A stretch of 64,000 nt of DNA. Origin: Planctomycetia bacterium (GTDB lineage: Bacteria; Planctomycetota; Phycisphaerae; Phycisphaerales; SM1A02). Under the pieces are notes generated by a model. That model made no database searches, was not told the origin of the DNA, and was given only the letters and a program-made list of their open reading frames with translations. The stretch lies in contig SYGP01000035.1 of assembly GCA_005799495.1 (NCBI GenBank), positions 1 to 64,000 of the forward strand, given 5' to 3'. Positions 5,219-36,925 of the stretch are shown in pieces. The translations under genes and the position numbers were made by a program. Within the stretch, counting starts at the first letter, position 1. Each line of letters opens with the position of its first letter.

Positions 5219-5839
5219 TCAGCGCCGACGACGGCTCACCAGTCCGGCCACGCCCAAGAGGGCGATGGCACCTGGGGCTGGGATCGCGGTGACGGTAATC
5301 GAGCCGCCCGAGTCTTCCCAGACGAGGGCAACCAAAGTTCGCGACGCCGCGGTGGCGCCAACCTGCATGATTCCGTATCCGTAGCGAACGACTCCCGGAG
5401 TCGAGCCCGGGTTGAAGCGGAAGCCAAAGTAGTTGGTCGAGTTGATCGCCCAACCATTGCTTCCGACGCCGGTAGCACTAATAACCGCGGTAGTGCTGTT
5501 GGCGTAGGTTGAGGACCCGCCGATCACTGTTCCGAGAGCCAAACTGCTCGGGCCACCAGAGGCCTGCGTCCGCACATAGGTCGTTGATGGGTTCGGACTG
5601 GTAGCAGAGGCGAAAAAACTAAGACTAGTTGCGCCGTAGGGATTGATGTCCCAGCCAGCAACTGCTGCCCCGGTCGCACCCGAGGTCTGGGCAGCCACAT
5701 TGATGTAGAGACCATCAAGGTTCGCCGGGATGGCAGCGTTGATGTTCCAAGTAACGATCGCTGCGTTTGCAGCTCCCGCCACCGCAACTGCCGCAGCAGC
5801 GACAACAAAGTGACGGTCAAGGCGCGACGAAATGTTCAT
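5219..5839 (-). CDS. Secreted PEP-CTERM-like protein, GWDINPYG family
   Basis: 206 aa secreted protein. Signal peptide (hydrophobic core VVAAAAVAVAGAA, cleavage near ANA-A). The whole mature domain, from TWNINA to the VGATAASRTL block, is closely similar to residues ~20-210 of the protein at 35348-36925, with GWDINPYGAT and YFGFRFNPGST identical or nearly so. This copy then ends in IPAPGAIALLGVAGLVSRRRR-type tail (hydrophobic helix plus four Arg), whereas the other continues into further domains. Start ATG 5839 is chosen over 5866 because GGAGAG lies just upstream. A strong terminator follows. Function unknown; likely exported and surface-attached by analogy with PEP-CTERM proteins, which is inference. 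Confidence 0.82.
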   Translation of the reverse strand: MNISSRLDRHFVVAAAAVAVAGAANAAIVTWNINAAIPANLDGLYINVAAQTSGATGAAVAGWDINPYGATSLSFFASATSPNPSTTYVRTQASGGPSSLALGTVIGGSSTYANSTTAVISATGVGSNGWAINSTNYFGFRFNPGSTPGVVRYGYGIMQVGATAASRTLVALVWEDSGGSITVTAIPAPGAIALLGVAGLVSRRRR

Positions 5840-5966
5840 TGTTGACTCTCCGAAAGAAAAGGGCAAACGGAACTCTCAGGCGCATCCAGCAGGGTTAGGG
5901 ATCTGCAGGACGCGGAGGCGGGAGCACGCCCGCATCGTCACCACCATACTTCACGATCATGCGCCT

Positions 5967-5976
5967 GCAAATTATT
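5967..5976 (-). promoter_or_regulatory. AT-rich element upstream of PEP-CTERM-like gene
   Basis: Minus-strand AATAATTTGC followed by AGG, 128 bases upstream of the start at 5839. A near-identical AATTATTTGC followed by GG lies 123 bases upstream of the PEP-CTERM-like gene starting at 59225. It could be part of a shared promoter or a regulator site; two examples in AT-rich spacers is weak evidence. Confidence 0.25.
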
Positions 5977-6093
5977 TGGGAAGTTTTGTATCAAGTTCCC
6001 GTTCAGCCGGATCTCTGGTGGACCTATCGCTCCAGGCCCCCCTTGGGGGAGATAGTTGACCCCGAGCCCACCAAACCTCAAAAAGAAGGCGTA

Positions 6094-7326
6094 TCAGCGG
6101 GACAGCTGATTGAAATCGTCGCCGCGCGAGCTGTGGAACTCCGGCAAGAACCACTTTGGTCCGATTGACTCGCAAGCTCCGATGGGTAGCTGGCGGATCA
6201 ATACCGCCCTAGGAGGTAGCATCCCGCCAGCTGGCTGAGCAGACGCGGGAGCCCCATCGGAGGGACGGATCGCCCAGGTCAAGCGGACGGAGATCACTTC
6301 GAGCGTTGTGGAGTCGGCAACCAGGCGAACCGACTGAGGGCCTTCTCCACCTCGCGAATCCAGACGGCGTGCCTGAACCACGGTTATCGGTCTTCCAAGC
6401 GAGGTGTCAGCATCCGTTCTTGAATCGAATGAGACTTGGTAGCCGCGCTGCAGCGAGTCGAGAACTGAAGAGAGGGTCATGTAGCCCAACGACTCACCTG
6501 AACCAGACATCGCGATCTGTTCGCCTTCGGTGTCGAGTTCGGGGCCGTCCAGAATCCCAACTTCGACGGCACCGGGGAAGCCCTTTCCAAACGTGATTTG
6601 AGAGTCGGAACGGCGGATCGATCCGCGCGGTCCAACCAGCCAATACTGCGTTCCGTCAAAGCCCATGACGATGCGCTCAAGAACGGGGCGATCGCCAGTC
6701 GGCGGCCGGTCGGCAGATTCTCGGCGCAGCTTGGACATCGTCAGCGTCCAGCGACCCTCCGCCCCGAGTTGAAGTTCTCCAACTCGGCGAAATCCCTCCG
6801 CCCGCGCGCGGTCGGGACGGTCTCCGCGCCCACGTTCTGGGCCATCCGCGCGCCCGCGTTCTGAGCCATCCGCGCGCCCGCGTTCCGGGCCATCCGCGCG
6901 CCCGCGTTCTGGGCCCGCCGAGGGAGGGCGGTGCGGCTGAATCAGAATCTCGTAGCACCGCCCACCCGCGCGCGCGGTTGAACGCATCGAGTTCAGGGCC
7001 GCAACTGCCGTTGCCTCAGTCGACGACGGGAAGAACAGCAGCGCAAGAACAATTGCCGCCGCCATGCCGGCACTTCCGCCGATCCACGCAAGCCGCTCAC
7101 GGAATCTGTGAGCGCGCGTTCCCACGAGCCGGAGCCCGCCTTCCTGCGCACGAACGGCGGCGGTTGCGCGGTCCACACGGGCCACAACGCGCGCAGATTC
7201 GCCCTCGTCGAGCATGCGAAGGAGCCCATGAACGACGCGCGCATCAGCCTGTTGGTGCGGTGCATCATCTTGGCCGAGGTCGAGCGCGCAAGGGTCGGGA
7301 GGAGTTGGGAGGTGGTCGTTGTTCAT
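6094..7326 (-). CDS. Probable membrane-anchored anti-sigma partner with GPERGRAD repeats
   Basis: 410 aa, no clear family. About 90 hydrophilic N-terminal residues precede one membrane helix (IGGSAGMAAAIVLALLFF), followed by a long extracytoplasmic region: the topology of ECF anti-sigma factors. Its ATG (7326) overlaps the TGA of the ECF sigma gene (ATGA), which is the main reason for the assignment. After the helix there are about four tandem 8-residue units G-P/S-ERGRAD, encoded by 24-bp DNA repeats, then a beta-rich region (YWLVGPRGS, ITVVQARRLDS) that resembles the outer-membrane lipoprotein-sorting (LolA-like) proteins often paired with such sigma factors. No zinc-binding anti-sigma motif (HxxxCxxC) was seen, so the anti-sigma role is inferred from context only. 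Confidence 0.6.
   Translation of the reverse strand: MNNDHLPTPPDPCALDLGQDDAPHQQADARVVHGLLRMLDEGESARVVARVDRATAAVRAQEGGLRLVGTRAHRFRERLAWIGGSAGMAAAIVLALLFFPSSTEATAVAALNSMRSTARAGGRCYEILIQPHRPPSAGPERGRADGPERGRADGSERGRADGPERGRGDRPDRARAEGFRRVGELQLGAEGRWTLTMSKLRRESADRPPTGDRPVLERIVMGFDGTQYWLVGPRGSIRRSDSQITFGKGFPGAVEVGILDGPELDTEGEQIAMSGSGESLGYMTLSSVLDSLQRGYQVSFDSRTDADTSLGRPITVVQARRLDSRGGEGPQSVRLVADSTTLEVISVRLTWAIRPSDGAPASAQPAGGMLPPRAVLIRQLPIGACESIGPKWFLPEFHSSRGDDFNQLSR
6834..6913. repeat. 24-bp tandem repeats in coding sequence
   Basis: Three full 24-bp units (6834-6857, 6858-6881, 6882-6905; about 1-2 mismatches) and a partial fourth, inside the minus-strand gene 6094-7326. They encode an Arg/Glu/Asp-rich octapeptide just outside the membrane helix. 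Unit length is a multiple of three, so copy-number change would keep the frame. Confidence 0.9.
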
Positions 7327-7850
7327 GCAAAAACCTGCTTGGTTTTCAGGCATTCCGCGAGCCAGAGTCGGGCGCGATACAGTCGCTTTCGGAGGGTTTC
7401 TTGGGCGGCTCCTACCGTTTCCGCCGCCACGGGAACATCCACGCCACGGATGTAGACCAGTTCGATCGCTTCGCGCCCTTCGGCGTGCAGGCGTTCGATG
7501 CACCGCTTGAGTTCAGCGATGCGTTCGGCGAATGAGTCGCCCGACTCGCGGTCAAGCCGACCAAACTGCTCCTCAATGCGATCTTCGAGCAACCCGTGCA
7601 AATGCGCCCGGTAGCGCTTGTTCTTTCGTGCCGCTGCAAGGATGTGGTTGCGCGCGATTCCGCGGAGCCACGGCGCGAAGGGTCGCGATGGGTCGAAGTC
7701 GTCGATTCGGGTCCAGGCGCTGATGATCGTTTCTTGAAAGATGTCGTCCACCTCGGAACGGTCAAAGGACATTGAATAGATGAACGCGCTGAGCATGTCC
7801 GCGTGCTGGCGGATAAGGATGTCGAAGATGTCCGATGCCTTGGGAGTCAT
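7323..7850 (-). CDS. ECF-family RNA polymerase sigma factor
   Basis: 175 aa sigma-70 family protein with only regions 2 and 4. Region 2 contains DDIFQETIISAWTRIDDF and the promoter-melting FAPWLRGIARNHILAAARK; region 4 contains the helix-turn-helix PVAAETVGAAQETLRKRLYRAR. The separation and length are typical of ECF sigma factors, of the type common in planctomycetes. Both ends are coupled: the ATG overlaps the TGA of the rRNA methyltransferase upstream and its own TGA overlaps the ATG of the membrane protein downstream. It presumably directs RNA polymerase to a small regulon in response to an envelope signal sensed by that neighbour; the signal and targets are unknown. Confidence 0.9.
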   Translation of the reverse strand: MTPKASDIFDILIRQHADMLSAFIYSMSFDRSEVDDIFQETIISAWTRIDDFDPSRPFAPWLRGIARNHILAAARKNKRYRAHLHGLLEDRIEEQFGRLDRESGDSFAERIAELKRCIERLHAEGREAIELVYIRGVDVPVAAETVGAAQETLRKRLYRARLWLAECLKTKQVFA

Positions 7851-8836
7851 GAGTGATCGCCCGATGCCGCTGCCTCTATTGAACCTCCCGTGACCCTTTG
7901 GGACCGCCGAGCCCCGTTCTTTTTCAGGAGTGCGAGGAAGAAGCCCTCGAGAGGCGGCAGCACGCGCTGCGCGAGTGCAAGGGACGGGGGCAGTGCCCGC
8001 CCTCGCACCTCCGTCAGGGCAGGGCGGGCGTGCGGCAGGGTGAGAGGCAGCGGTTCAAGCGTGACTGCTCCCTCGGCGTGGTCCATGGCTCTTTCCACCA
8101 CCAGTTCGTTTTCGTCGACGGAGAATGTGCAAGTGGAGTAAAGGAGCAGCCCACCCGGTTTGAGGGTCTCGATGGCGGCGTTCAGGAGCGATTTCTGGAG
8201 AGACGCAAGTCGCCGCACCCTGCTCGGGGACCACGCCGCCGCCGCCGCCTCGTCCCCGGAAAGGATCCTCCCCTCGGCAGAACATGGGGCATCGACGAGT
8301 ACGCGGTCGAATACCTCCCGTTGTCCGCGCGCCCAGCGCTCGCCATGGGCCGTGATGCAGTGTGCGCGAGCGCCGAGCAGCCGAAGCAGCTCCTGCATGC
8401 GGAAGGTGCGCGTTCGGCTTGAGTCAACCGCGACCAGGGTTCCGCTGTTCTGCATCAGCGCAGCGATGTGCGAGGTCTTGCTGCCTGGGGCGGCACAGAG
8501 GTCGAGGACAGAGTGACCCGGGCGCGGGTCGAGGCACAGTGCCGCGGCGATGCTTGGCAGGGACTGCACATGAACCCGCCCTTCGCGCCATGCGGCGCAC
8601 GCCTGCACACTTCGCAGTGGGGCATCGGTCGTGAATGCAAGCGCAAGGGATGGCTCTTCCCGCAGTGGAACGCCCGCGGCTTCGAGCTCGCTGCGTGTCT
8701 CTTCGGGTGGTGCGCGAAGAGGGTTCAGCCGAAGCGACAGTCGCGCCGGGGTTGCCGTGTTTTCTGCCATGCACTCCGCCGGCACAGTTTCGAGCAACCG
8801 CTCGAGGAGGGCGGGGTGGACGGGCGGCACGGTCAT
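7847..8836 (-). CDS. RsmB/RsmF-type rRNA cytosine-C5 methyltransferase
   Basis: 329 aa SAM-dependent RNA m5C methyltransferase of the NOL1/NOP2/Sun family, probably acting on 16S rRNA. SAM-binding motif I is LDLCAAPGSKTSHIAAL; DAPCSAEGRI (motif IV) and STCTFSVDENE (motif VI) supply the two cysteines, the second being the usual nucleophile. An N-terminal block (SLRLNPLRAP) matches the family's small RNA-binding part; there is no NusB domain, so it is nearer RsmF-like than classical RsmB. ATG 8836 overlaps the TGA of the upstream methyltransferase and the TGA overlaps the sigma-factor ATG. The exact target cytosine cannot be told from sequence. Confidence 0.85.
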   Translation of the reverse strand: MTVPPVHPALLERLLETVPAECMAENTATPARLSLRLNPLRAPPEETRSELEAAGVPLREEPSLALAFTTDAPLRSVQACAAWREGRVHVQSLPSIAAALCLDPRPGHSVLDLCAAPGSKTSHIAALMQNSGTLVAVDSSRTRTFRMQELLRLLGARAHCITAHGERWARGQREVFDRVLVDAPCSAEGRILSGDEAAAAAWSPSRVRRLASLQKSLLNAAIETLKPGGLLLYSTCTFSVDENELVVERAMDHAEGAVTLEPLPLTLPHARPALTEVRGRALPPSLALAQRVLPPLEGFFLALLKKNGARRSQRVTGGSIEAAASGDHS

Positions 8837-9687
8837 GAGGCAGTCCGCGGCGCAAGCAGCGCGATGCGCATCGCGGATTCCTCGGGGTGGTGGTGAATGG
8901 GGTCGATGCCGAGGAGCCTTTCCATTTCCATCGGGTGGAAGCACCGCTCGACCGATGCGTGTGCTGTCGTGGCGAGCGCGTGGAGGTCGACTGTCGTGAG
9001 GGCGTGAGTGCCGACGATTTGACGGATCAGGGAGTGGTATTCGCGCGTTTCCTGGAGTGCGCTGTCGCAGAGCGGCGATTGGTCGCCGCTGAACTCGACA
9101 ATTGCCCGCGATGCGGGGTGCGCTGAAAGGGCGAACCGCAGAATCGACGCAAGCGCATCCTGCGTGATGTAGTAGGCAAGACCCTCGATCACCCACAGGC
9201 TCGGCGCGTCATCACGCCAACCAGCTGTGCGCAGCGCGCGGCGGCAAGCAGCGGCGTCGGTGAGATCGCAGGGAATGCACTCGATGCGCCGAGCGAGCGA
9301 AGTGTCGGCGACCTGATCGATGACGCGCCGCTTCTGCACCATGTGATCGATGTCCAGTTCGAAGGCGCGTGCTTCGGGGTGCTCCACGCACCAATCCAGC
9401 GCGAGCGGGGAGAGCCCAGCGCCTGCGCTCACGAGCTGAAGTGCGCGCGGCTGGTGCTCCGTGGCGAGCGCGTTCAGTTGCATGCGGATGAACGGCTTCC
9501 GAACGAGGATTCGGCGTTGGGCAAGCGGGAACCGGATTCGGACTGCATCTGCGAGCGCCTCGCCCGCGCGGAGGTCGAGCAGTTTCAGGAGTGCGCTGCC
9601 CTGAGGCGTGACGGCGGCATCGCTCCCCGCGATAAGCATGACCATGGCGGCGGTTGGTCCTGCCTGAAGCGGTTCGGGGCTTGCCAT
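8833..9687 (-). CDS. Leucine-carboxyl-methyltransferase-family SAM methyltransferase
   Basis: 284 aa protein of the LCM/COG3315 class of SAM-dependent O-methyltransferases. It shows the family's VSAGAGLSPLALDW SAM-binding block, an acidic strand end (FELDIDHMVQKRR), CDLTD, and the WVIEGLAYYITQDAL block that corresponds to the WVxEGLxxYL motif of the family. Members methylate carboxyl groups of small molecules or peptides; the substrate here is unknown. Start ATG 9687 gives the expected short N-terminus. First gene of a four-gene minus-strand chain (rRNA methyltransferase, ECF sigma factor, membrane partner), each joined by ATGA. The promoter probably lies in the 71-base gap to the divergent PEBP gene. 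Confidence 0.78.
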   Translation of the reverse strand: MASPEPLQAGPTAAMVMLIAGSDAAVTPQGSALLKLLDLRAGEALADAVRIRFPLAQRRILVRKPFIRMQLNALATEHQPRALQLVSAGAGLSPLALDWCVEHPEARAFELDIDHMVQKRRVIDQVADTSLARRIECIPCDLTDAAACRRALRTAGWRDDAPSLWVIEGLAYYITQDALASILRFALSAHPASRAIVEFSGDQSPLCDSALQETREYHSLIRQIVGTHALTTVDLHALATTAHASVERCFHPMEMERLLGIDPIHHHPEESAMRIALLAPRTAS

Positions 9688-9758
9688 GATGCGCAGAGTA
9701 GGAGTGGAGCGATGCCGAGTGCTTCTGGTTTCGGGCGGCGCGCGCGTAGGATGCAGAA

Positions 9759-10403
9759 ATGCGAAACTCTTGGCTTGTTCTGGTGGCGGCAGTGTTTGGA
9801 GCGTCGCTCGCGGTCGGTGCGCCTGCGGATCGCGAGCCTGCACAGGGTTCGCCGAAGCCGACGGAGGCCGCGCCAACTGCGCCAGCCGCGCCAGCCGCGC
9901 CTACCGCGCCAGCGCAGTCCCAGATGAAACTCGGGAGCGATGCGTTCAAGAGCGGTGAGGCGTTCCCCGTGAAGTTCACTGCCGATGGTGCGGGAGTTTC
10001 GCCAGCGCTGCAATGGGAGTCTGCCCCTGAGGGAGTGAAGTCATTCGCGATCGTGATGGATGATCCCGATGCGCGCGGATTCGTGCACTGGATCGTGTGG
10101 GGGATTCCAGCTTCGGCGCGGAGCCTGCCCGAGGCGATGCCGCGCGATCTTGAACTCAAGGAGCCTGCTGGCGTGCGGCAGGGGGTGACATCGTGGGGGC
10201 GGGAGCGGCCCGGCTACTGGGGATCGGCGCCGCCACCTGGGAGCGGCGTTCATCACTACACATTCACTTTGTATGCGCTGGATGTTGCTCTTGATCTCGC
10301 GCCTGGCGCGACTGCGAAGGAGTATCGCAGGGCGATCAAGGGGCATGTATTGGCTGAAGCAAGGTTGATCGGTTTGTACGAGCGGAAGGCGGCGAAGCCA
10401 TGA
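9759..10403 (+). CDS. YbhB/YbcL (PEBP-like) protein, exported
   Basis: 214 aa protein with a phosphatidylethanolamine-binding-protein fold (Raf-kinase-inhibitor-like family). Signal peptide (SWLVLVAAVFGASLAVGA) is followed by a Pro/Ala-rich linker of about 30 residues and the domain from about residue 55: MDDPDARGFVHWIVWGIP is the conserved ligand-pocket motif and PPPGSGVHHYTFTLYALD the second. Bacterial members are of uncertain function. The ATG of the next gene overlaps its TGA (ATGA). Start ATG 9759 is the one that gives a proper signal peptide. Confidence 0.85.
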   Translation: MRNSWLVLVAAVFGASLAVGAPADREPAQGSPKPTEAAPTAPAAPAAPTAPAQSQMKLGSDAFKSGEAFPVKFTADGAGVSPALQWESAPEGVKSFAIVMDDPDARGFVHWIVWGIPASARSLPEAMPRDLELKEPAGVRQGVTSWGRERPGYWGSAPPPGSGVHHYTFTLYALDVALDLAPGATAKEYRRAIKGHVLAEARLIGLYERKAAKP

Positions 10404-11101
10404 GCGCGGATGCAAGCGATGTGGTCGGCTATGTGTTCGCTGGACTGGTTGGTTTCTCCCTTGCTGCGGCGTGCGGCATGCGGATCTTTGCGCCACTGGC
10501 CATCCTGTCCGCTGCGGTCCACTTCGGGTGGATCAGTCCCGGCGACAAGTTGTCCTGGATCGGTTCGACGCCTGCGCTCGTGTGCTTCTCGCTCGCCTGC
10601 GTCATCGAAGCGCTCGGGATGATGGTTCCTTGGGTGGATCACGCTCTGGATGTGGCTGGTGCGCCCGTTGCGGCGGTCGCGGGAACGCTGGTGATGGCCA
10701 CGCAGTTGGCGAGCGCTGCGGGTGTGGATACCTCGGCGGTCCCTGCCTGGGTGACATGGGCCCTTGCCGCGGTCGTTGGGGGTGGCGTAGCAACGGGTGT
10801 GCATGCTGCAACGGGCACGATGCGCGCTGGATCCACCGCGGTGAGCGGCGGACTGCTGAACCCGTTCTTCTCTCTGGCGGAGACCGTGTCGTCGTTCGTG
10901 CTGTCTGCGTTGGCCGTGGTGCTGCCGATTGTGGCAGTGATCATCGCCTTCGTGATCGTCGTCTCTCTGTTCGTGGTTGCTGCGCTGGTCTGGCAGTGGC
11001 GCAAGCGCGCTGCGGGGCGTGCGCAAACGCAAACGGATTCGGCTGCGGGTTCGGTGGGCGCTGCGAGGGGCGAAGTTCGCGGCGCGGCGAGCGGCGGCTG
11101 A
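10400..11101 (+). CDS. DUF4126-like membrane protein
   Basis: 233 aa protein with about five or six hydrophobic helices. The N-terminal part (FSLAAACGMRIFAPL) and the AGTLVMATQLA...GGGVATGVHAATGTMRAGSTA...GGLLNPFFSLAE blocks fit the DUF4126 family, whose function is unknown. The tail after the last helix is basic and then Gly/Ala-rich. Translationally coupled to the PEBP-like gene by ATGA. It is a probable inner-membrane protein; nothing in it suggests an enzyme. Confidence 0.75.
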   Translation: MSADASDVVGYVFAGLVGFSLAAACGMRIFAPLAILSAAVHFGWISPGDKLSWIGSTPALVCFSLACVIEALGMMVPWVDHALDVAGAPVAAVAGTLVMATQLASAAGVDTSAVPAWVTWALAAVVGGGVATGVHAATGTMRAGSTAVSGGLLNPFFSLAETVSSFVLSALAVVLPIVAVIIAFVIVVSLFVVAALVWQWRKRAAGRAQTQTDSAAGSVGAARGEVRGAASGG

Positions 11102-11288
11102 GGCGCAAGAAGTTTGGTGTGATTTTTCGGATTCCCCGCGCTGCGGGATAGGTTGTGCGCCGTTGGTGCGGGGGCGTTTCCTGCACGGGTTGGCTGGCGC
11201 ATTCGGGTGCGGCGCTCGCGAACGCGGCGATGTGGTTTTGATTGCATCTGACGGCTTTGCCGCGCGAGGCGGCGGGAGGGATTCACAC

Positions 11289-12050
11289 ATGACTTGTGAC
11301 ATTTCGGGGAACTTGCAGAACGCGTTGGTGGTGCGTTTCGTCGGCGCGGTGGTCGCGCTGATGTTTGCTGTGGGTGTGCGCAGTGCGGAGGCAAGCGCGG
11401 CGGTGCAGATTGCCGCGTGGAACTTCAACGGCGCACAGGGCACGCTTGAACCGTCTGCAGGTCAGGGCACGGCCGCAACGGTCGGAGGAACATCGGGGAC
11501 ATTTTCCGCCGGCGACCCAACCGACGATGGCAGCGCGAAGCCTGCGGAAAACAAGGCGTGGAACATCGCATCCTTTGCGGCGCAAGGAAGCGGCAGCGGT
11601 GAACGCGGCGTTCGCTTTGATGTGTCGACCGTCGGGCGGGGTTCGCTTGCCGTGTCGTGGCGCGAGCGGCACAGCAACTCTTCAAGCCGCTTCGTCCAGT
11701 TTCAGTACTCGCTCGATGGAACGACATTCGTGAGCACAGGGCTTGCGAACGATGGCATCTTCGAGGCGGTCCTTGGCGGTGAAGTATGGCAGCCGCAGCG
11801 GACCGTGGACCTCTCGTCAATCACTGGTGTTGCCGACAACGCGAAGTTCGCGGTACGGATTGTGAGTGTGTTCGCACCAGGGACGAGCGGCTACGCAGCC
11901 ACGGCACCGGGAGGGAACTACTCGGCAGCTGGCACGCTGCGTTTCGATCTCGTTGCGTTCTCGGGTACTCCGGTCCCTGCACCCGCAGCGGCGGGGCTCG
12001 GTGTCGCGAGTGGAGTCCTTGCACTCAGCGGCGGTCGACGCCGCGACTGA
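11289..12050 (+). CDS. Secreted protein with PEP-CTERM-like tail
   Basis: 253 aa exported protein. A signal peptide (FVGAVVALMFAVGVRSAEASA) is followed by a beta-rich domain starting IAAWNFNGAQGTL and containing RFVQFQYSLDGTTF and a C-terminal LRFDLVAFSGT strand, a pattern seen in planctomycete extracellular beta-sandwich proteins. The end is VPAPAAAGLGVASGVLALSGGRRRD, a PEP-CTERM-like tail with a weaker Arg cluster. ATG 11289 is chosen because GGGAGGG lies 7-8 bases upstream; the open frame continues far upstream without similarity. The stop is 10 bases from that of the convergent lipoprotein gene. Function unknown. Confidence 0.75.
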   Translation: MTCDISGNLQNALVVRFVGAVVALMFAVGVRSAEASAAVQIAAWNFNGAQGTLEPSAGQGTAATVGGTSGTFSAGDPTDDGSAKPAENKAWNIASFAAQGSGSGERGVRFDVSTVGRGSLAVSWRERHSNSSSRFVQFQYSLDGTTFVSTGLANDGIFEAVLGGEVWQPQRTVDLSSITGVADNAKFAVRIVSVFAPGTSGYAATAPGGNYSAAGTLRFDLVAFSGTPVPAPAAAGLGVASGVLALSGGRRRD

Positions 12051-12060
12051 TGATCTGATT

Positions 12061-12519: not shown

Positions 12520-12609
12520 GCGCTGAGGAGAACGCTACACCTCAGGTGCGTATTGCAGCAACCTTGCAGGGCGACTTCCTGGGCAACCACTGTGCGGTCG
12601 GTTCAGTGC

Positions 12610-13659
12610 TCAGGACCATGCACTCAGCACGACTGCCAAGTCAACGCCGTCCACATTTCCGTCTTGGTTGACGTCCGCAGTCGGCAAGTCAGATCCCCAA
12701 GCTGACAGGACGATCGCCAAATCAGCGCCGTCCACGCTCCCATCGCCGTTGACATCCGCGGGGTCCGTCTGCTGGCTGCCACTTGCCGCGAGCGAGAGAT
12801 TCAGCGAAGTCGTCCCCGTCGATTCCCCGAAAGTGCCAGAAAAGAGCAGACTTGCCGTTCCACCCGTGGGAATCACCGTGGGCAGAGCCACGGGTTGATT
12901 TTCGAGAGGCGGTAAGGGTGGCAGCGGTCCGATTGGGTCGTTGCTGCTCGCCGAGACAGCGAGGGAAGCACTTGATCCCTTGACAGTCAGTGTTCCAACA
13001 AGGGCAAGCACTCCAGGCAGTGGTCCCGGATCGGCGGCTTGGCCGGCGACAGAGCCCACGATGGTGATCGTCACTGGCACCGCAACATTCACCGAGTAGG
13101 TTCCTGCAGATGTTGCCACCGCAATGCCGATCGCCTTTCCTGATTGAACGGCTGTTGCTTCGGTGATCGATCCGCTCCCGAGAGGAATGGTGATCTCTCC
13201 GACGGAGGGGAAGAGCGAGCTCGGGTTCACCGTCCGGAAGGTCGAGTAGGTGAGCAATTGTTCGAGATCGACCGTGCCGGGGATTTCGTTGAGCAGATCA
13301 AAGGTCAATCCCGACACGGAGCACGCATCACCACCGAGCAACGCGAGTGAGAACGAACCTGCAGGGTTCGTGGCGATCGACTGCGTGATGCGAATCGTGC
13401 TGGAGTACGGAATGGGCTGGTTGCCAGATCCTCCAAAGAGACCGGGCAGTGTTCGAGTGCCCGTCGGATTGGTCGCGTCGTTGTAGTTGCCGATGAGCGT
13501 TCCCGTGAGCGGCGTGTCGAGCGTGAGGATCTGCTGGACCGTGCTCTCGGGGAGCACGGTGAAGTCGAAGGTCTGCGCGCGTGCGGCGGTGGCCAAGCCC
13601 AGCGCGGTCGCGAGGGCGGCTGCGAGGGTCAGGTGGAGGCTTGGGGAGGTTCGCAACAT
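12610..13659 (-). CDS. Secreted dockerin-like repeat protein
   Basis: 349 aa exported protein, signal peptide ending AARA-QT. The body is Ser/Thr/Gly-rich and beta-predicted without a recognised domain. The last ~60 residues are two dockerin-type calcium-binding repeats, DVNGDGSVDGADLAIVLSAWG and its near copy, each an EF-hand-like loop followed by a helix ending in W-G/S. No cohesin domain is visible in the window, so these may act as surface-anchoring or stabilising tags rather than in a cellulosome. Start ATG 13659 gives the signal peptide; a weak AGG precedes it. Confidence 0.78.
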   Translation of the reverse strand: MLRTSPSLHLTLAAALATALGLATAARAQTFDFTVLPESTVQQILTLDTPLTGTLIGNYNDATNPTGTRTLPGLFGGSGNQPIPYSSTIRITQSIATNPAGSFSLALLGGDACSVSGLTFDLLNEIPGTVDLEQLLTYSTFRTVNPSSLFPSVGEITIPLGSGSITEATAVQSGKAIGIAVATSAGTYSVNVAVPVTITIVGSVAGQAADPGPLPGVLALVGTLTVKGSSASLAVSASSNDPIGPLPPLPPLENQPVALPTVIPTGGTASLLFSGTFGESTGTTSLNLSLAASGSQQTDPADVNGDGSVDGADLAIVLSAWGSDLPTADVNQDGNVDGVDLAVVLSAWS

Positions 13660-13719
13660 GCCTGAATGTAGTTCGACAGTCGCGGCGCGCAACTTCGATC
13701 GGACGGATTGACGACAACT

Positions 13720-30111: not shown

Positions 30112-30176
30112 CCGGATTTGAACCTGCGGCCTCTTGGTCCCGAACCACGCGCTCTACCAAGCTGAGCTACACCCCG
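30103..30176 (-). tRNA. tRNA-Pro (anticodon CGG)
   Basis: Minus-strand cloverleaf: acceptor CGGGGTG/CACCCCG, D-arm GTAGCTCAGCTTGGTAGAGC, anticodon stem-loop with loop TTCGGGA (anticodon CGG), T-arm with GGTTCAAATCC. The discriminator is A and CCA is not encoded. Overlaps the end of the convergent gene 29230-30111 by 9 bases. Confidence 0.93.
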
Positions 30177-30252
30177 CGCTCATTCCGACTCTGCGCGGCG
30201 AACGGACGAGAATAGCCGCGCTCGCTGCGGGCGGCAATCGAGGCGGAATCCA

Positions 30253-33200
30253 TCATCCCGCGCGGTCGTCGCCGTCCATCTCCTCTTTCGCCCTGCGTTT
30301 GGCGCGTCGGAGCCGCGAAAGTGGATCGCTCGTCTCCTCCTCCGCAGCGCGCGCCGCGGAATCTGAAGTCGTTGAAGTTCCGTTTTGGATGGTGGGCGTC
30401 TCGGGCATCTTCGTCGTGGGTGCTGCGGGCGCTGTCGGCATCACGCGAGATCGGCTGCGGGCGGACGCTGCTGCAGGAGTGGCCGAGTTCGCGAGCACCG
30501 TGCGTTCACCGCTCCCGTCGCCGCCACCCGCGGATGCCGCGCGCGCACGCTTCCACGCAGCGATCGTCTCACCGCGGCCGGCACGCGAAACACCCGTGAC
30601 GCTCAAGAGCCCATCCCGCAGCACGCCTGAATCGAGCACGAGCCGACGCGACGCCACATCGATCACCAACAACACGGCCGCGATGATGGCGAGGATGTCC
30701 CAGATCTGACGGATCGAGCGTGGCCTTGTCAGCCCTGAACGGTCGAAGAGGTCTTCGCTCGCCAGCGATGCAGCAGACAGCACGCGCCCTCCCGTCTGCT
30801 CCGCAGTCTGGATCAGCAACATCGAGTTGTCGCGCGTCATGCGATACTCCCGTGAGTAGGGAACGCTGACGCTCGCCTGCACCGAACCGCCCGCGCGCGC
30901 CGCACCGCTCTCGCTCAGCCCAGCGTCAACGAGGTATGACCCCGTTCCCTCGCAGGTGAAACGCCCCTCGAATCGACCAAGTCCCTTCTGCACCATGGGC
31001 AGTCGCTGCACGGTGCCATCGGGCATCACAATCCGCGCCTCCGCGCGACCAAACGGCGCAGACCCAGAGTTCATCCCGGTTGCATCCAGCTCGACAACGG
31101 CATCATCGCCGTCGATCCGAGTGCGGAGCATCAGGGTGTCAGGCGCTGCGGGACGCATGAGCCAGCGCACCACGCGCTCCCAGAAGGGCTGGAACCCGCT
31201 CCAGGAGACCCACGCGGATCCCCAGCGACCCGTCGTATCGCTCGTGAATGCAACGACCTTTCCGAGTCCGTGGTTCCAATGCGCCAAGATTGGATCGGTT
31301 CCCTCCTCCGAAACCCGCACGATCGGATACTGCGACAGCCCTTCGCGCGGCACCGTGATCACCGAACCTCCGAGCGGTGGAAGCGCAGTGAGATCGGGTG
31401 CCACAGGGCCCGCCGCATCGCGACGCAGTTGCGGTTGGAAGCTCCCCTCAGCGATGAGATTTCGCGAGCCGATGGACATCTCACGAATGAACATCGCCGG
31501 CAGGCGCCGCGCGGCTGCAGGGGAGTCGATGGAGTAATGCTCGCCGCCTCCCTCTTGCGCGAGGAACATGAGCAGTTCATCGTTGCTTCCATCGCCCACG
31601 CCGATCGTCGAGATCGTGATTTTGTTGCGGCGCGCTGTCTGCACGATCTGCTTGCCCAGCTCCTGATCGCCCGTGGTCTGTCCATCCGTGAGGATCACCA
31701 TGTGCCGCGTTGCAGCCTTGGACTTGAGCAACTCCTCGAGCGCAAGCTCCATCCCTGCGAACTGATTCGTCCCGCCGCCCGACTGCATGCTCAGGATCGA
31801 TGCGGCGATTTTTTTGCCGTCGCCAACTTGCTGGCGTGGTACACGAACTTCCGCATCCTGATTGAACGGCACGACGATGATCTCGTCGAGGCGAGTCATC
31901 GAACGAAGCCCTGCAACGGCCGCGTCATTCGCCTCTTCCTGCTGCGTTCGTCCCGTCCCAGAAACCACATTGCACATCGATCCGGAGGTGTCGATCACCA
32001 CGGCAACACAGGCGCGCATCATCTCGCGCGAGGCTGGCGGATCCAGTTTCACGGGAAGCGCATCCGCGAGTGCGCTTCCGATCCAGCCGCCTGCGCCGAA
32101 GGAACTGTCGCCGCCTGTCACAAGCAGCCCGCCGCCGAGATCATGCACATAGGAGCGCAGCAGCCTGTCGGTGGCGTTGTCGATGGAGTAGCGGGGAACA
32201 TTCGACAGCACGACGGCGTCGTACGCGGAAAGCGACGCCATGTCGCCCACCAGTTGATCGCTCGAGATGGTGTCGACGGTGAGTCCGCCGCGTTGCAGGG
32301 CCTGCACGAGCGAAGCACTCTCCGCCTCGGCATCGTGTATGACCAGCACGCTGCCTTCGCCTGCAACGAATGTGGTGGTGGCGCCGCGGTTGTTCTCGAC
32401 GACGCCATCGCCAGTCGCAGCATCCGGCTCGAACAGCGCACGGAAGCGGCGTGCACCAGAGCGATCCAGTGACAACGGCACCTCGATGGTGCTCGGGCCC
32501 GCGGGCAGCGTGATGCGGCGACCCGAACCAGGCGATGCGGAATCCAAGTCGATGGGCTGGTCGTTCTCCCACACCAAGAGCGTGCCACTGCCACCGCCTT
32601 GGCTGCGCAGCGCGATGCGGAGCGATGCGGCCTGTCCCGATCGAACGCGGGAGGGCAGTCGGATGCTCTCGATGAGCGTCTCACGCGAGTGCGAGTAGGT
32701 GATCGGCAGCACATCGATGGGCACACGGTTGGCGGCTGCCAGATCTGCTGCGGCGGCAAGACTCCCCGCCGTCTCGTTGCCATCCGAAACCAGCAGGATG
32801 CGGTTCATCGTGTCGGGCGGCAACACGGCGAGCGCGCGCTGTACCCCCTTCGCGAGATCCGAGCCCTCGAGATCGCTCGGCCGGGCGGTGAAATCGATTC
32901 GCCCGCCCACTCGCGGAATCTCCGTGACTGCTGCGTTGCGTCCGACCGCCACCACGCCGATTCGATCGTTGCGGTCAGTCCTGCGCTCGACGGCGCGCTC
33001 GAGTTGTTCCTGCGCCTGCTGCAGGAGTTCGGTGGGAACCGACTTGCTGACATCGGCAACGACCACGAGCGTGACCTGCTCACCCGTGCGGCGGATGGCG
33101 GGCTGCGCGAGCGCGAGGGCAAGGAGTGCCAACAGCAGTGACCGCGCCGTCGCCGCCATGGCGGCACGACGCGTGCCTGTGAAGCCGCGTCGCCTCCACA

Positions 33201-33267
33201 CCGACCACCAGATCAGCGGCAGCACCGCGAGGATCAGGAGCGCAATCGGACGATCGAAGTGCGGCAC
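30253..33267 (-). CDS. Large membrane protein with two vWA domains and GATase-like domain
   Basis: 1004 aa. Two N-terminal membrane helices (LLILAVLPLIWWSVW; LLLALLALALAQPAI) precede a vWA-type domain with a MIDAS-like DVSKS (about residue 72). A region (VLVIHDAEAESASLVQALQRGGL ... VVLSNVPRYS ... GGGLLVTGGDSSFGAGGW) resembles the class I glutamine-amidotransferase fold. A second vWA domain follows with complete MIDAS DTSGS and TDGQTTGD. Near the end a further helix (IWDILAIIAAVLLVIDVA) precedes a long basic cytoplasmic tail. Such BatA-like proteins occur in planctomycetes without a proven role. ATG 33267 starts at the first helix. Confidence 0.8.
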   Translation of the reverse strand: MPHFDRPIALLILAVLPLIWWSVWRRRGFTGTRRAAMAATARSLLLALLALALAQPAIRRTGEQVTLVVVADVSKSVPTELLQQAQEQLERAVERRTDRNDRIGVVAVGRNAAVTEIPRVGGRIDFTARPSDLEGSDLAKGVQRALAVLPPDTMNRILLVSDGNETAGSLAAAADLAAANRVPIDVLPITYSHSRETLIESIRLPSRVRSGQAASLRIALRSQGGGSGTLLVWENDQPIDLDSASPGSGRRITLPAGPSTIEVPLSLDRSGARRFRALFEPDAATGDGVVENNRGATTTFVAGEGSVLVIHDAEAESASLVQALQRGGLTVDTISSDQLVGDMASLSAYDAVVLSNVPRYSIDNATDRLLRSYVHDLGGGLLVTGGDSSFGAGGWIGSALADALPVKLDPPASREMMRACVAVVIDTSGSMCNVVSGTGRTQQEEANDAAVAGLRSMTRLDEIIVVPFNQDAEVRVPRQQVGDGKKIAASILSMQSGGGTNQFAGMELALEELLKSKAATRHMVILTDGQTTGDQELGKQIVQTARRNKITISTIGVGDGSNDELLMFLAQEGGGEHYSIDSPAAARRLPAMFIREMSIGSRNLIAEGSFQPQLRRDAAGPVAPDLTALPPLGGSVITVPREGLSQYPIVRVSEEGTDPILAHWNHGLGKVVAFTSDTTGRWGSAWVSWSGFQPFWERVVRWLMRPAAPDTLMLRTRIDGDDAVVELDATGMNSGSAPFGRAEARIVMPDGTVQRLPMVQKGLGRFEGRFTCEGTGSYLVDAGLSESGAARAGGSVQASVSVPYSREYRMTRDNSMLLIQTAEQTGGRVLSAASLASEDLFDRSGLTRPRSIRQIWDILAIIAAVLLVIDVASRRLVLDSGVLRDGLLSVTGVSRAGRGETIAAWKRARAASAGGGDGSGERTVLANSATPAAASARSRSRVMPTAPAAPTTKMPETPTIQNGTSTTSDSAARAAEEETSDPLSRLRRAKRRAKEEMDGDDRAG

Positions 33268-33303
33268 GATGCCGAGAGGCTAACGGGCGAAGCGCTCTTC
33301 CGA

Positions 33304-35157
33304 CTATGGGCTGACCGGTCGCGCACCAAGCGACTGCCCAATCACATCGAGGAGCTTCTGATCGCGGTCGGCGGTGATCTCCCAGAACATGGCACCCGAC
33401 AGTCCGATCTCGTTCGCCCACTCCAGCTTCAGGGCGATGGACTGTTGGTCGTCGTAGCCGATCCAGTGTCCGCCGTGAGCGGTTGCGCTGTACAGGAACG
33501 GATTCTTGGTCACTGGATCCCAGTGCCGCTGATAGCCGCTCCCTGATGCGAGCAAGGTGCGATCGATCTCCGTGAAGTCGTTCACGCCCGTGGCGCCGCT
33601 CGACCAGTCGTCCCACGTGCCTGGCGGAACGCCGGTGCCTGGCTGATGCAGTCCGAATCCCGTTGCAGGAACACCGCGCCATGCACGCCCGTAGAAGGGG
33701 AGCCCAAGCACAACCTTGTCGGGCGGAGTGCCGGCAGTGAGATACTGCTCCACTGCGTGACGAGTGTTGTACTTCGTCCGCAGCTGCTCGTTTGCGCTCG
33801 GGAGTCCGAGATCCGGCTCGAACGCTGCGTGATTTGCGGTGTAGGCAAGTTCCCACGCACCGAAGTAGTCGTAGGTCATGATGTTGATGAAGTCGAGATG
33901 CTGGTGGATCTGCGACGCCTCCAAGTTCTCGAACTTGTCGTAGCCCGCGGGAGCCGCAATCGTGAGGAGGTAGTGCTTCCCATCCTCCGCACCCGCTGCA
34001 TTCAGCGCGAGGCGTGTATCCCGCAGCAGCAGGGTGAAGTTCTGTTTGTCCGCAGGGCGGTATGTATTCGAAGGCAGCCCACCGGCAACGGGATATTCCC
34101 AGTCGATATCGACACCGTCGAATCCGTAGGTACGGATGAAATCCACGCAGCTCTGCGCAAACACTGCGCGGCTGCTCGGGGTGAGCGCCGCATCGCTGAA
34201 TGCCCCGCTCAGCGTCCAGCCGCCGACGGAAATCAGTGTCTTGATGTGCGGGTACTGCTTGCGAAGGACCGTGTTGAGTTGGTGGTAGGTCCCGCGGATC
34301 GGCTGATCCCAGGTGTCACCCGGGTAGTTCTTCTCGATCGCCGCATAGGTATCGAATGGCGCGACTCGTCCCTGCGAATCAATCTTGGCGAAGGCGTAGT
34401 TCAGATGCGTGATCTTGTGCAGTGGCGTATCCGAAGGCTGGTAGTTGCGCCCGTAAATGCCCCACTCGATCCAATAGGCAACGATGCGTCGCTCGGGCGG
34501 GCAGGCCCCCCAATTCGACAGCAGCATGCTGAGGTCTGTCCCATCGATCGATCCGTTTCCATCCAGATCCGCCGCTGCAGCGCCTCCTGCTTGACCCCAC
34601 GATCCAAGCATGACGGCGAGATCGCTGCCGCCCGTTTCACCATTCCCATCCATATCGCTGATGCAGGTGAACGGGCCGCGTGGGTTTTCCGGTGGAGTAC
34701 CGCCACCACCACCGCTGCCACCACCACCACCGCCGCCGCCCCCGCCGCCGCCACCGCCGCCGCCACCGGTGCTGCCTTGATAGGCAACCTCAGCTGAAAC
34801 GCCGTTGACGGAGCATTCACTGACGTTTTCAAGCAGTGTTCCCACGCCCGTGTAGCCCACCGTGGCACTCGCTCCTGGTGCAATCGTTCCGTTCCATCCC
34901 GCGTTGATGAGTGTTGCGTGTCCGCTCGAGAAGGAGTAGGTGCCGTTCCATGCCGAGGCAACGCTGGGACCGTTGTCCCACTCGGCGCGCCAGTCCTGGA
35001 TCGCCGTTGCCGCGCGGTTGGTGATGATGATCGAACCGTTGTAGCCACCGTCCCACGAGTTGTTCTTCACGAAGGTGACGAGCGGCGGTTCAGCAGCCGA
35101 GTGAAAGGCTGAAGCGAGTGAGAGGACCCAAGTGAATCCGATGAATGCGCGCTGCAT
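33304..35157 (-). CDS. Secreted GH18 chitinase with CBM2 and internal dockerin-like repeats
   Basis: 617 aa secreted glycoside hydrolase likely to cleave chitin. Order: signal peptide (1-22); CBM2-type carbohydrate-binding module (about 23-125, with NSWDGGYNGSIIITN and aromatic residues); poly-Gly linker; two dockerin-like repeats (DMDGNGETGGSDLAVMLGSWG, DLDGNGSIDGTDLSMLLSNWG); and GH18 (about 225-617) with YGFDGVDIDWEYP carrying the catalytic Glu, ISVGGWTLSG and INIMTYDYFG. GH18 enzymes use substrate-assisted catalysis. The position of dockerin-like repeats between CBM and catalytic domain is unusual. Start ATG 35157 has AGGAGGTG four bases upstream, a near-ideal ribosome site. Confidence 0.9.
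   Translation of the reverse strand: MQRAFIGFTWVLSLASAFHSAAEPPLVTFVKNNSWDGGYNGSIIITNRAATAIQDWRAEWDNGPSVASAWNGTYSFSSGHATLINAGWNGTIAPGASATVGYTGVGTLLENVSECSVNGVSAEVAYQGSTGGGGGGGGGGGGGGGGGSGGGGGTPPENPRGPFTCISDMDGNGETGGSDLAVMLGSWGQAGGAAAADLDGNGSIDGTDLSMLLSNWGACPPERRIVAYWIEWGIYGRNYQPSDTPLHKITHLNYAFAKIDSQGRVAPFDTYAAIEKNYPGDTWDQPIRGTYHQLNTVLRKQYPHIKTLISVGGWTLSGAFSDAALTPSSRAVFAQSCVDFIRTYGFDGVDIDWEYPVAGGLPSNTYRPADKQNFTLLLRDTRLALNAAGAEDGKHYLLTIAAPAGYDKFENLEASQIHQHLDFINIMTYDYFGAWELAYTANHAAFEPDLGLPSANEQLRTKYNTRHAVEQYLTAGTPPDKVVLGLPFYGRAWRGVPATGFGLHQPGTGVPPGTWDDWSSGATGVNDFTEIDRTLLASGSGYQRHWDPVTKNPFLYSATAHGGHWIGYDDQQSIALKLEWANEIGLSGAMFWEITADRDQKLLDVIGQSLGARPVSP
34701..34767. repeat. GGN/CCN microsatellite encoding poly-Gly linker
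   Basis: About 22 CCN-type triplets (CCA, CCG, CCC) in the minus-strand chitinase gene, translated as a run of about 24 Gly with one Ser. Triplet slippage would only vary linker length. Confidence 0.8.
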
Positions 35158-35279
35158 GAACACCTCCTGCTCGCCCTGAGTGGACAAGTCGGTCCACGCA
35201 GTGGAATACGCGCCGCGCGCGTCGGCAGTTTCGCGATCGCGAAGAAAGAAAACCCGCTGCGCGACAAGGCGCAAGTCGT

Positions 35280-35319
35280 TTGCAAAAGTGAAACGCGGGG
35301 TGCCCGAAGGCACCCCGCG
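35280..35319 (-). terminator. Rho-independent terminator with UUCG loop
   Basis: 11-bp stem CGCGGGGTGCC (35294-35304) with GGCACCCCGCG (35309-35319); on the minus strand the loop is TTCG and the stem is followed by TTTCACTTTTGC. It lies 29 bases after the stop of the minus-strand gene 35348-36925 and before the chitinase start. Confidence 0.85.
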
Positions 35320-35347
35320 GATATCGGCAACGTCTTGAAGCCGTGAC

Positions 35348-36925
35348 TTACTGGCAGGCACCCCAACCGCTGAGCAGGATCGTCAAATCCGATCCGCCCG
35401 TCACGCCGTCGCCGTCGAGGTCGGCGCCCGATGAACCCCAGTTGGAGAGAAGAATCGTCAGATCAGAGCCTCCTCGCACGCCATCGCTGTCGAAGTCGCC
35501 AGGACATGGAGGCGTTTGTGGCGGACCATCGATCACCAAGTTGGCGGAGATAGCTGCCGTCGTTGAGCCGTATCCACCGATGACGAGCAGATAGGACTGG
35601 CCCGCCACCAAGTCTTGCGTCAGCGGGATACCTGTGTTGGTGCCATTGAGGCGACTTGAGAAGTTCGACTGCGTGGTGGTTCCGCATCCGGATGTGCATG
35701 CGCACGCATCGTCGTTGTACGCAATCGACTGGAGCGTCGCATTGACCGCAGGACAGTCTGATGCAATGGCCATCTTGGTGTCATTGACTGACCCGCAGGC
35801 GCTGAAGGTGTAGGGCCCCGTCACGGTCGGCGTGAAGCGGTACCACCGAGCCTTGTAGACAACCGCAGTGGCGGTGGGTGACGAGCGCACCGTGAGATCG
35901 CCAGTGATTCCAGCGTTGTCGACGGCGTTGTCGCCAAACTGAAGGGCTGTTGCGCTGGCGCAGTTTGGGTTCGGCGGCGGGGGTGGTGCCGTCACATCGA
36001 TGGAAAGCGGTGACGCCAGATCGGATCCGCCTTCGCCACCGACCACCACATACACAATCTGTCCGCTGTTCAGCGACAGATCGAGCGACGATGAACTGCC
36101 GCAGGCATCGTCGTTGCACGCAAGCTGATTGGAACCAGCCGCGCAACCATCCAAGACTGCCAAGCGCGTCGCGGCCCCACCCGAGCATGTGCTGAAGGTG
36201 TAACTACCCGTGTACGGCGCCGTGTACTTGTAATAGTTTGCCTTCGCAGCCGTCCCGCAGCCGCTGAGGGCGAGATCCTGTGCCGTGTCCACATTCACAA
36301 AAACGCTGTTGGCACCGCTTGCGAGCACTGGGTTGAACGAGGCGCACGGGTCGTACGCCGGCGGTGGACCATCGGGTCCCACCGTGATCGGTGCACCAGT
36401 GTCATCCCACTTGATGTAGAGCAGGGTGCGCTGCGCTGCGGTGGCGCCAACCTGCAAGGCACCGAACCCGTATCGAACCGTCCCTGCAGTGGATCCTGGG
36501 TTGAAGCGGAATCCGAAGTAACCGATCGAATTCAATGCCCAACCGTTGGCGCCAACGCCGGCTGCACTGATGACCGCTGTCGTGCTGTTCGCGAAAGGAC
36601 CACTCGAACCGACCACGAAACCCTCGGACAGGTTGCTTGGTCCGCCAGTGGTCTGCGTTCGGACATAGGTCGTTGCTGGGTTCGGGGATGTCCCAGACGC
36701 GAAGAAATTCAGAGTGGTAGCGCCGTAGGGATTGATGTCCCAGCCGGCCGTTGCTCCGCCGGTTGCGCCGGTGGTCTGCGTCGCGATGTTGATGTACAGA
36801 CCGTCGATGTTGGCCGGAATCACTGCGTTGATGTTCCAAGTGATGACTTCGGCCTGCGAAGCTGCAGCGATCGACAGCGCGGCTGCAGCGACTGCAAAGT
36901 GACTATTGAGACGAGCATTCAACAT
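35348..36925 (-). CDS. Large secreted GWDINPYG-family protein with beta domains and dockerin-like tail
   Basis: 525 aa. Signal peptide (AVAAAALSIAAASQA), then a GWDINPYG domain (about 20-210) very similar to the whole mature part of the protein at 5219-5839, sharing NINA, GWDINPYGAT, SPNPxTTYVRTQ and YFGFRFNPGST. Then come two beta-sandwich repeats (YYKYTAPYTGSYTFSTC and RWYRFTPTVTGPYTFSAC) of the pre-peptidase/PPC type, and two C-terminal dockerin-like repeats (GGSDLTILLSNWG, GGSDLTILLSGWG). It lacks the PEP-CTERM-like tail. Likely an extracellular adhesin or matrix protein; that is inference. ATG 36925 is preceded by AAAGGGAA. A terminator follows. Confidence 0.82.
   Translation of the reverse strand: MLNARLNSHFAVAAAALSIAAASQAEVITWNINAVIPANIDGLYINIATQTTGATGGATAGWDINPYGATTLNFFASGTSPNPATTYVRTQTTGGPSNLSEGFVVGSSGPFANSTTAVISAAGVGANGWALNSIGYFGFRFNPGSTAGTVRYGFGALQVGATAAQRTLLYIKWDDTGAPITVGPDGPPPAYDPCASFNPVLASGANSVFVNVDTAQDLALSGCGTAAKANYYKYTAPYTGSYTFSTCSGGAATRLAVLDGCAAGSNQLACNDDACGSSSSLDLSLNSGQIVYVVVGGEGGSDLASPLSIDVTAPPPPPNPNCASATALQFGDNAVDNAGITGDLTVRSSPTATAVVYKARWYRFTPTVTGPYTFSACGSVNDTKMAIASDCPAVNATLQSIAYNDDACACTSGCGTTTQSNFSSRLNGTNTGIPLTQDLVAGQSYLLVIGGYGSTTAAISANLVIDGPPQTPPCPGDFDSDGVRGGSDLTILLSNWGSSGADLDGDGVTGGSDLTILLSGWGACQ

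Follow-up and report, generated by a model that had tools for sequence, protein, structure and literature searches.

A secreted domain that appears to move between planctomycete genera within two conserved protein frames

Systems in which parts of surface proteins are exchanged are already known. In the VARTIG proteins of Thermococcales archaea (PMC8416519) it is a C-terminal Ig domain that varies. This one domain of a surface-type protein departs from the species tree and is exchanged in situ between species; shorter genes as possible donors and a sorting signal beside the variable domain are further likenesses to the case described here. Allelic exchange in Porphyromonas gingivalis has likewise produced a surface-protein mosaic unrelated to the genome phylogeny, but within one species, and the abstract of that work (PMC5266723) describes no two-frame system. 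Here, we analyzed a window of 64,000 nucleotides from a Planctomycetia bacterium (positions 1 to 64,000 of contig SYGP01000035.1, assembly GCA_005799495.1; the source genome, G000, has 2.36 Mb in 50 contigs and is 97.8% complete), in which the secreted proteins encoded by genes A, B and C share a domain that is followed by different C-terminal tails. We put at about 0.8 the probability that the mature domain, which follows the signal peptide and has about 155 residues, is a module that has been swapped between lineages into conserved frames of signal peptide, tail and flanks.

The NCBIfam name choice-of-anchor (the model in hand is NF041539, choice_anch_R) presumably denotes one secreted domain with several C-terminal signals, as was found here with PAP/Arg, dockerin-like, PEP-CTERM and T9SS endings. 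The present domain differs in that two anchors occur in one genome, in its movement between genera and in having no NCBIfam or Pfam model over it. Inter-species exchange at a conserved locus, which marks VARTIG, was found here as well. Unlike in the archaeal system (PMC8416519), where the sorting signal goes with the variable domain, the module is N-terminal in the mature protein and bacterial, the signal peptide and mostly the tail are fixed, and there are two tail types. Two other systems concern the tails themselves. A C-terminal hydrophobic stretch with an Arg cluster, and an EpsH/exosortase gene in the genome, are shared with PEP-CTERM/exosortase sorting as outlined in PMC1569441. A cohesin/dockerin complex, the Planctosome, was proposed for the Nemodlikiaceae, possibly the same bacteria, and in that report (PMC6461901) the dockerin-like repeats are likewise not tied to cellulose. 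No report on exchange of this domain was found in a literature search for which the domain has no name to search by and in which subscription journals were mostly uncovered. What appears to be new here is a probably exchangeable N-terminal domain on two co-occurring tails, moving between genera.

Distribution of the domain among genera

A search of the 181 genomes of the family with the domain of B gave matches in 65 at E 0.001. Among the matches listed, 100 stretches from 58 of the 64 other matching genomes were surveyed (G006, G060, G105, G111, G115 and G121 were left out), and together with the window they hold 155 domain copies in 154 frames, 101 loci and 59 genomes. Two tail classes were distinguished, P (short, PAP/Arg-type) and D (longer, ending in a dockerin-like part). 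The copies comprised 106 P, 38 D, three with long tails cut by a contig end and eight left unclassed. Both tails were present in 30 of the 59 genomes, P only in 22, D only in six and neither in one. The first-pass annotation of the window had proposed one domain on two tails, to be refuted by a single tail type across genomes; this refutation fails, and the two versions do co-occur.

Inter-genus domain pairs alike at 93-97% of bases shared 82-99% of their fourfold degenerate sites. For instance, the domains of G084 (genus g28) and G123 (g34) agreed at 458 of 471 bases and 99% of fourfold sites, against 64% and 38% in the adjacent AlkP-like gene; G081 shares the same domain type. The AlkP-like gene, a TPR-phosphodiesterase gene (AlkP, PF01663) that is often the neighbour of an array of P genes, is present in 44 of the 101 loci and in G000 sits elsewhere (C31). 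In ten inter-genus pairs the identity was 0.67-0.78 for the signal peptides and 0.67-0.80 for the downstream DNA where readable, values to be read against a background of about 0.7 that unrelated stretches reach in the gapped alignments used for signals, tails, flanks and AlkP; the main examples were recounted on codons.

The domain was compared with three controls. GAPDH, for which 25 genomes were asked for and 23 obtained (G164 and G173 had no match), covered five genera and 208 inter-genus pairs, with a maximum of 80% of bases and 0.69 of fourfold sites. Sixty of 8,717 inter-genus domain pairs, from 35 rows and nine genus pairs, exceeded every GAPDH pair in both measures. The AlkP-like gene (41 genomes, 667 inter-genus pairs) reached at most 69% of bases and 0.56 of fourfold sites, and the best domain pair surpassed it by more than 0.05 in bases and more than 0.15 in fourfold sites in 136 of the 667 inter-genus genome pairs. 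In the flanks, the only control likewise with many genes, none of 290 open reading frames with an inter-genus match reached 85% (maximum 76.8%), while 36 of 148 domain rows did.

In a tree of 148 domain copies (seven shorter than 110 model positions were dropped) genera were intermixed, often on very short branches. The tail class needed 20 changes over the P and D rows, or 21 with one unclassed row, and at least ten were forced by the branches starred in the tree. These comparisons show near-identical domain bodies in different genera, and like ones in P and D frames, whereas the signal peptide, the flanking genes and mostly the tail stayed local. The sequences of these draft genomes argue that, in addition to vertical descent, the domain has repeatedly been exchanged between lineages, each time ending up in either of two conserved frames.

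Conserved frames and the genes of the window

The same frame was also found around different domains. Forty-one pairs of genes with the same tail, drawn from different genomes and in part inter-genus, had signal peptides alike at 88% of bases or more but domains alike at less than 70%. Identical residues between the D genes of G019 and G007 numbered 21/23 in the signal peptide, 54/149 in the domain and 291/340 in the tail; the corresponding figures were 22/23, 68/149 and 301/351 for the D genes of G118 and G123, and 24/24, 63/146 and 22/24 for the P genes of G117 and G119. Two domain states in a shared frame were represented by two genomes each in g34 (G117 and G118 against G119 and G123) and by two against one in g1 (G018 and G019 against G007). 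Trees of the tail and of the domain, built from the same 29 D rows out of 38, needed five and ten genus changes, respectively. Six rows were excluded because their tails fell outside the range of 320-480 residues, as were the second domain of the G180 gene and the lectin pair described below. Among 128 rows the nearest row belonged to the same genus for 104 signal peptides and 78 domains, with about 22 expected for both from shuffled labels. The counts were 74 for the signal, 62 for the tail and 53 for the domain in 90 P rows, and 24, 28 and 24, respectively, in 30 D rows compared among themselves. A signal n-region motif of the kind N-R-L-x-K-H-F recurs in many P and D copies across genera, which is unusual conservation for a signal peptide.

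The genes of the window and their parts are as follows.

5219 to 5839, minus strand: gene A, 206 amino acids, with signal peptide, exchangeable domain and PAP/Arg tail
5765 to 5839, minus strand: predicted signal peptide region of A, MNISSRLDRHFVVAAAAVAVAGAAN, taken as the residues preceding the domain-model match
5300 to 5764, minus strand: exchangeable domain of A, from a profile made in this analysis (E 1.7e-50)
5222 to 5299, minus strand: tail of A with PAPGAIALLGVAGLVSRRRR, PEP-CTERM-like without the Glu
4143 to 4781, minus strand: gene C, 212 amino acids, distant member with a tail of the same type as A
4230 to 4697, minus strand: domain of C, from the profile made in this analysis
35348 to 36925, minus strand: gene B, 525 amino acids, in which a signal peptide and the domain precede two PPC-like modules and a dockerin-like pair
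36854 to 36925, minus strand: predicted signal peptide region of B
36392 to 36853, minus strand: exchangeable domain of B; the syntenic relative in G015 holds another domain type
35987 to 36349, minus strand: first PPC-like module of B, borders approximate, from the structure model and the internal repeat
35522 to 35962, minus strand: second PPC-like module of B, borders approximate, from the internal repeat, the structure model and Foldseek
35351 to 35506, minus strand: dockerin-like pair of Ca-loop repeats of B, with Cys close to both ends
37268 to 38050, minus strand: membrane gene upstream of B, which we take from its sequence to be SNARE-associated-like; it marks the syntenic position of B in G014 and G015
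5153 to 5182, minus strand: terminator-like hairpin of 13 pairs after A
3479 to 4057, plus strand: sulfotransferase-like gene convergent with the array, named from its sequence (GLPRSGTSM) alone

At the position of B, the D genes of G014 and G015 stand beside the same SNARE-like and H+-pyrophosphatase genes. The G015 gene matched B at 273 of 345 tail residues (79%), 17 of 25 signal residues and 76 of 149 domain residues. Its domain agreed with that of a D gene of G116 (g34) at 142 of 164 residues (87%) and 77 of 91 fourfold sites, while these two genes shared 11 of 24 signal residues and 84 of 161 tail residues, the G116 gene being cut by a contig end. In approximately unbiased (AU) tests on 38 of the 148 rows, picked by hand and with groups named after the identities were known, a single clade was rejected at p 2e-107 for the D domains from the three syntenic positions and at p 7e-40 for five P domains of g34 that lie next to AlkP.

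The first-pass annotation had located A, B and C at these coordinates, with one domain common to A and B, a more distant form of it in C, and PPC-like modules followed by dockerin-like repeats in B, and all of this was confirmed; the three genes lie on the minus strand. A and B were identical at 125 of 181 residues (69%), ungapped (E 4e-75), with the signal-peptide region included, and the match stops where the two tails part; the identity of A and C was 35% (E 6e-19). With A as the query, G000 gave three clear copies, all in the window (E 6e-126, 1.8e-81 and 1.3e-18), and seven weaker matches (E 2.6e-4 to 0.63), three of which were tail-only. The tail of A had been called PEP-CTERM-like; its hydrophobic stretch and Arg cluster, also present in C, agree with that name, but the motif reads PAP and not PEP in both. 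An identical DNA stretch reported for A and B proved exact over 26 bases (GGCTGGGACATCAATCCCTACGGCGC on the coding strand). It is no sign of recency, since it encodes GWDINPYGA and the remaining domain is far less alike.

The proposal that a recent duplication in this genome gave rise to A and B, after which one copy swapped its tail, did not fare as well, and we consider it improbable. It would fit the likeness of A and B across signal region and domain, as well as the grouping of four g1 copies in the tree, a weak clade (support 81/33). A P and a D domain of G120 agree at 88% of bases and 66 of 81 fourfold sites, so one domain common to both tails within a genome does occur. However, the domains of A and B agreed at 71% of bases and 28 of 69 fourfold sites (41%), which is the inter-genus mean of GAPDH (70% of bases, 0.41 of fourfold sites). 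Each of them has its own orthologue in G014, a sister species, at 85% of bases and 0.73 of fourfold sites for A and 91% and 0.80 for B (GAPDH of G000 and G014: 88% and 0.63), and their signal peptides are identical at 11 of 25 residues only. The fourfold identity and the separate orthologues indicate that the pair is old, and as a recent event the duplication is refuted. A and B appear to be two old holders of one domain type, one per frame. Tag swapping reads better in the opposite sense, that is, as replacement of the mature domain inside a conserved signal peptide, tail and flanks, often from another genus. Delivery of the domain to the surface by two putative routes is plausible.

Borders of the proposed exchange and alternative explanations

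Borders were determined as change points. Thirty inter-genus pairs reach 85%, and 15 of them were taken, with no row used more than twice; an identity profile anchored on PAPG was blurred by differences in linker length and was replaced by this method. The best high block started between domain codons -10 and +9 in 13 of the 15 pairs, and in nine its end fell in the stretch from domain codon 141 to tail codon 12. For ten pairs that share a frame, picked by hand, the low block started at -6 to +9 in eight, and in seven its end lay in the stretch from domain codon 152 to tail codon 5. The 5' border appears to lie near the signal cleavage site, and the 3' border mostly near the domain end or tail start and sometimes at the gene end. 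Borders at module edges need not mean a dedicated enzyme, since a functional protein would tolerate breaks there, and whole-domain replacement calls for no diversity-generating retroelement. Homologous recombination of incoming DNA, or between array paralogues, could use the conserved sequence at the domain edges, and selection would then retain a new domain because of altered surface recognition or display. The P frame would be anchored by the single exosortase of the genome, and the D frame would dock onto an extracellular partner or adhere to one through its PPC-like modules. As to carriage by phages or plasmids, neither the 50,697 phage records nor the 72,556 plasmid records searched by tblastn with A gave a match, and none of 28 pattern matches in viral_contigs encoded a relative.

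Several results weigh against exchange of the domain or restrict it. In the two remaining pairs the high block started at codons 35 and 11, in one pair it ended at codon 81, and in five of the 15 it reached the gene end (tail codons 25-27), so the P tail may have moved too in these cases; the P tail was also alike (0.90-0.96) in three of the nine readable cases among the ten inter-genus pairs described above. Between B and the G015 gene the best low block covered codons 58-112 only, and no recent exchange is visible in the domain type of A and B. A good part of the domain's history is still vertical: the nearest domain in a different genome was of the same genus in 78 of 128 rows, against the 22 expected from shuffled labels, and in 24 of 30 D genes. 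The tail label was clustered on the domain tree (21 changes against a shuffled mean of 36.6). The GAPDH and AlkP controls favour the domain somewhat, since a genome holds several domain copies and the best of many is compared with a single-copy gene, and the choice of rows and groups in the AU tests also counts here. With regard to DNA uptake, the one ComEC-like match is to a family that 10 of 14 control genomes have as well. Finally, every genome here is a draft, and any one junction might be due to chimeric assembly, with G003 and G073, both from one sample, the most exposed pair.

An entirely vertical history, in which the domain types are ancient paralogues and signals and tails were homogenised in each genome by gene conversion, is about as unlikely as the duplication. 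The arrays at a conserved locus in many genera are in line with it, as are the signals that track genus better than the domains (104 against 78 of 128) and the moderate fourfold identity, about 0.6-0.7, of many inter-genus pairs at 85-90% of bases. Yet domain fourfold identities of 82-99% across genera, against at most 69% for GAPDH and 56% for the adjacent AlkP, are beyond what vertical types would give, and the tails of about 345 codons and the DNA up- and downstream also track the local lineage. For the closest pairs these fourfold identities refute vertical descent throughout; for older splits it may hold.

We give still less credit to the view that chimeric assembly or mis-binning of contigs produced the mosaic. 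Almost all named records are metagenome-assembled genomes (MAGs), two come from the one sample mentioned, and several copies are cut by contig ends. Nonetheless, the states recur in independent assemblies, which by their record titles come from different sites: G018 (Loc090402-8m) and G019 (ME-21oct19) share frame and domain, the independently assembled G007 (F1-140) has their frame with another domain, and G084 and G081 both have the type of G123. Flanking genes on the same contigs have diverged as expected. Transfer of whole genes, with local signals and tails acquired later by drift, is very improbable: several pairs can hardly be explained unless the domain region was transferred horizontally, and the tail was alike too in five of 15, but the 5' breaks are sharp, in none of ten examined pairs was the signal as close as the domain, and domain fourfold identities of 82-99% leave little time for signals to drift to background. 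Exchange of the mature domain between lineages into conserved frames is the reading that we prefer.

Structure, sorting machinery and meaning

An AlphaFold2 model of the domain of A (5285-5767) showed a beta-rich fold (pLDDT 90.6) for which Foldseek found nothing in PDB or BFVD at E 0.001. A second structure comparison gave 8b6a (BfrB) at Z 7.8 (rmsd 3.9, 130 aligned), the next row being at Z 3.6; the comparison tool describes a Z of 7.8 as common where a model matches nothing clearly, and BfrB, an HmuY-type protein according to PMC12106395, is a lead only. No model covered the domain in a Pfam/NCBIfam scan of 88 members, which gave one- or two-member matches only (best E 0.0056). An order-wide profile search matched 87 of 400 genomes at E 1e-5. 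In records titled as other phyla, a title that can be wrong for MAGs, the domain was found with a true PEP-CTERM (L233, L216 and L184) or ending in a T9SS signal (L236, E 8.6e-6).

Most D tails (26 of 38) are 338-352 residues long, corresponding to the two PPC-like modules and dockerin-like pair of B, and three have the dockerin-like part only (62-64 residues). In L048 a C-type lectin (PF00059, E 1.2e-14) replaces the second PPC-like module, which means that the tails are modular too; the tail of L053 is 87% identical. One D gene (L087, 7321-9801) has two exchangeable domains in one protein, located apart on the domain tree. The model of the B tail (pLDDT 87) has two helices in the dockerin-like pair. 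Its PPC-like modules align with each other as an internal repeat, with identity at 31 of 101 columns (E 3e-10), and the best Foldseek match was to the tandem collagen-binding domains s3a-s3b of ColG (5iku, E 1.2e-7) at low TM values of 0.25/0.33; PF04151 was found in two of 20 D tails (best E 0.0046).

A profile of 20 D tails matched solved dockerins (E 1.4e-5), and PF00404 was found in 11 of the 20, B not being among them; B alone did not match PF00404 even at E 10. Nor did its tail match NF041540 (GC-type dockerin, cut-off 29 bits), to which 11 of the 20 matched (best E 1e-5); of five scored singly, three gave 15.1-19.2 bits and two nothing. G000 has 72 PF00404 matches at E up to 10, about 45 of them over the cut-off and several in one frame; the pair of B is not among the 72, and weak matches occur also in 9 of 14 control genomes. 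Cohesin (PF00963) was found in 30 of the 181 family genomes and in none of 19 genomes of g1, the genus of G000, at E 0.001, G000 included, a search that a divergent cohesin could escape. A cellulosome reading of B was rejected on the finding of no Pfam cohesin in these 19 genomes, and the same result, together with no peptidase domain found in B, sets it apart from the Planctosome (PMC6461901).

The P tails read PAP in 101 of 106 cases and PEP in none, unlike the PEP-CTERM proteins outlined in PMC1569441; 105 of the 106 have at least three Arg in the last seven residues, and the hydrophobic stretch was read from the sequences. The tail of C scored 16.2 bits against TIGR02595 (cut-off 16) and that of A 15.6 bits against PF07589 (cut-off 20.7), a model with weak matches in 13 of 14 control genomes too. 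Of the eight PEP-CTERM matches that G000 has at E up to 10, one exceeds the cut-off, and the genome has one exosortase gene (PF09721, E 4.3e-47); PF09721 is present in 167 of the 181 family genomes, with or without the domain.

Copies on the same strand stand in groups of up to five; outside the window 70 copies are single, and of the 33 groups, which have two to five copies, six mix P and D. Just upstream of A and in the same orientation are an ECF sigma factor and an anti-sigma-like gene (6094-7850, minus strand; names from the sequence). Relatives of this pair were found in 11 of the 101 loci, window included, and it precedes the array in several g1 genomes as well; it may regulate the array. 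The sulfotransferase-like gene has relatives in 35 of the 101 loci, window included. Directly downstream of B (33304-35157, minus strand) is the gene of a GH18 chitinase that also has CBM2 and, in its centre, a dockerin-like pair, and a related gene is located downstream of the G014 D gene. Three other secreted genes, at 12610-13692 (minus), 11283-12050 (plus) and 58680-59231 (minus), have tails that are dockerin-like or PAP-type on bodies that are unrelated.

Annotation cannot treat genes of this family as orthologues on the strength of the domain alone. The comparisons mark out an unnamed domain family, strongly variable in lake bacteria, and offer a natural experiment on the roles of PAP/Arg and dockerin-like tails in Planctomycetes. 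Inter-genus exchange with a 5' break near the cleavage site separates possible recognition from the mode of display, and the module would be one of surface recognition diversified by inter-lineage recombination. Tentatively, a widespread freshwater Planctomycete family might hold an inter-genus pool of surface recognition domains recombined into two display frames, a bacterial counterpart of VARTIG. If so, one specificity would be displayed both anchored and docked or adhesive, and could serve in kin or nonself recognition or in escape from phage or grazers.

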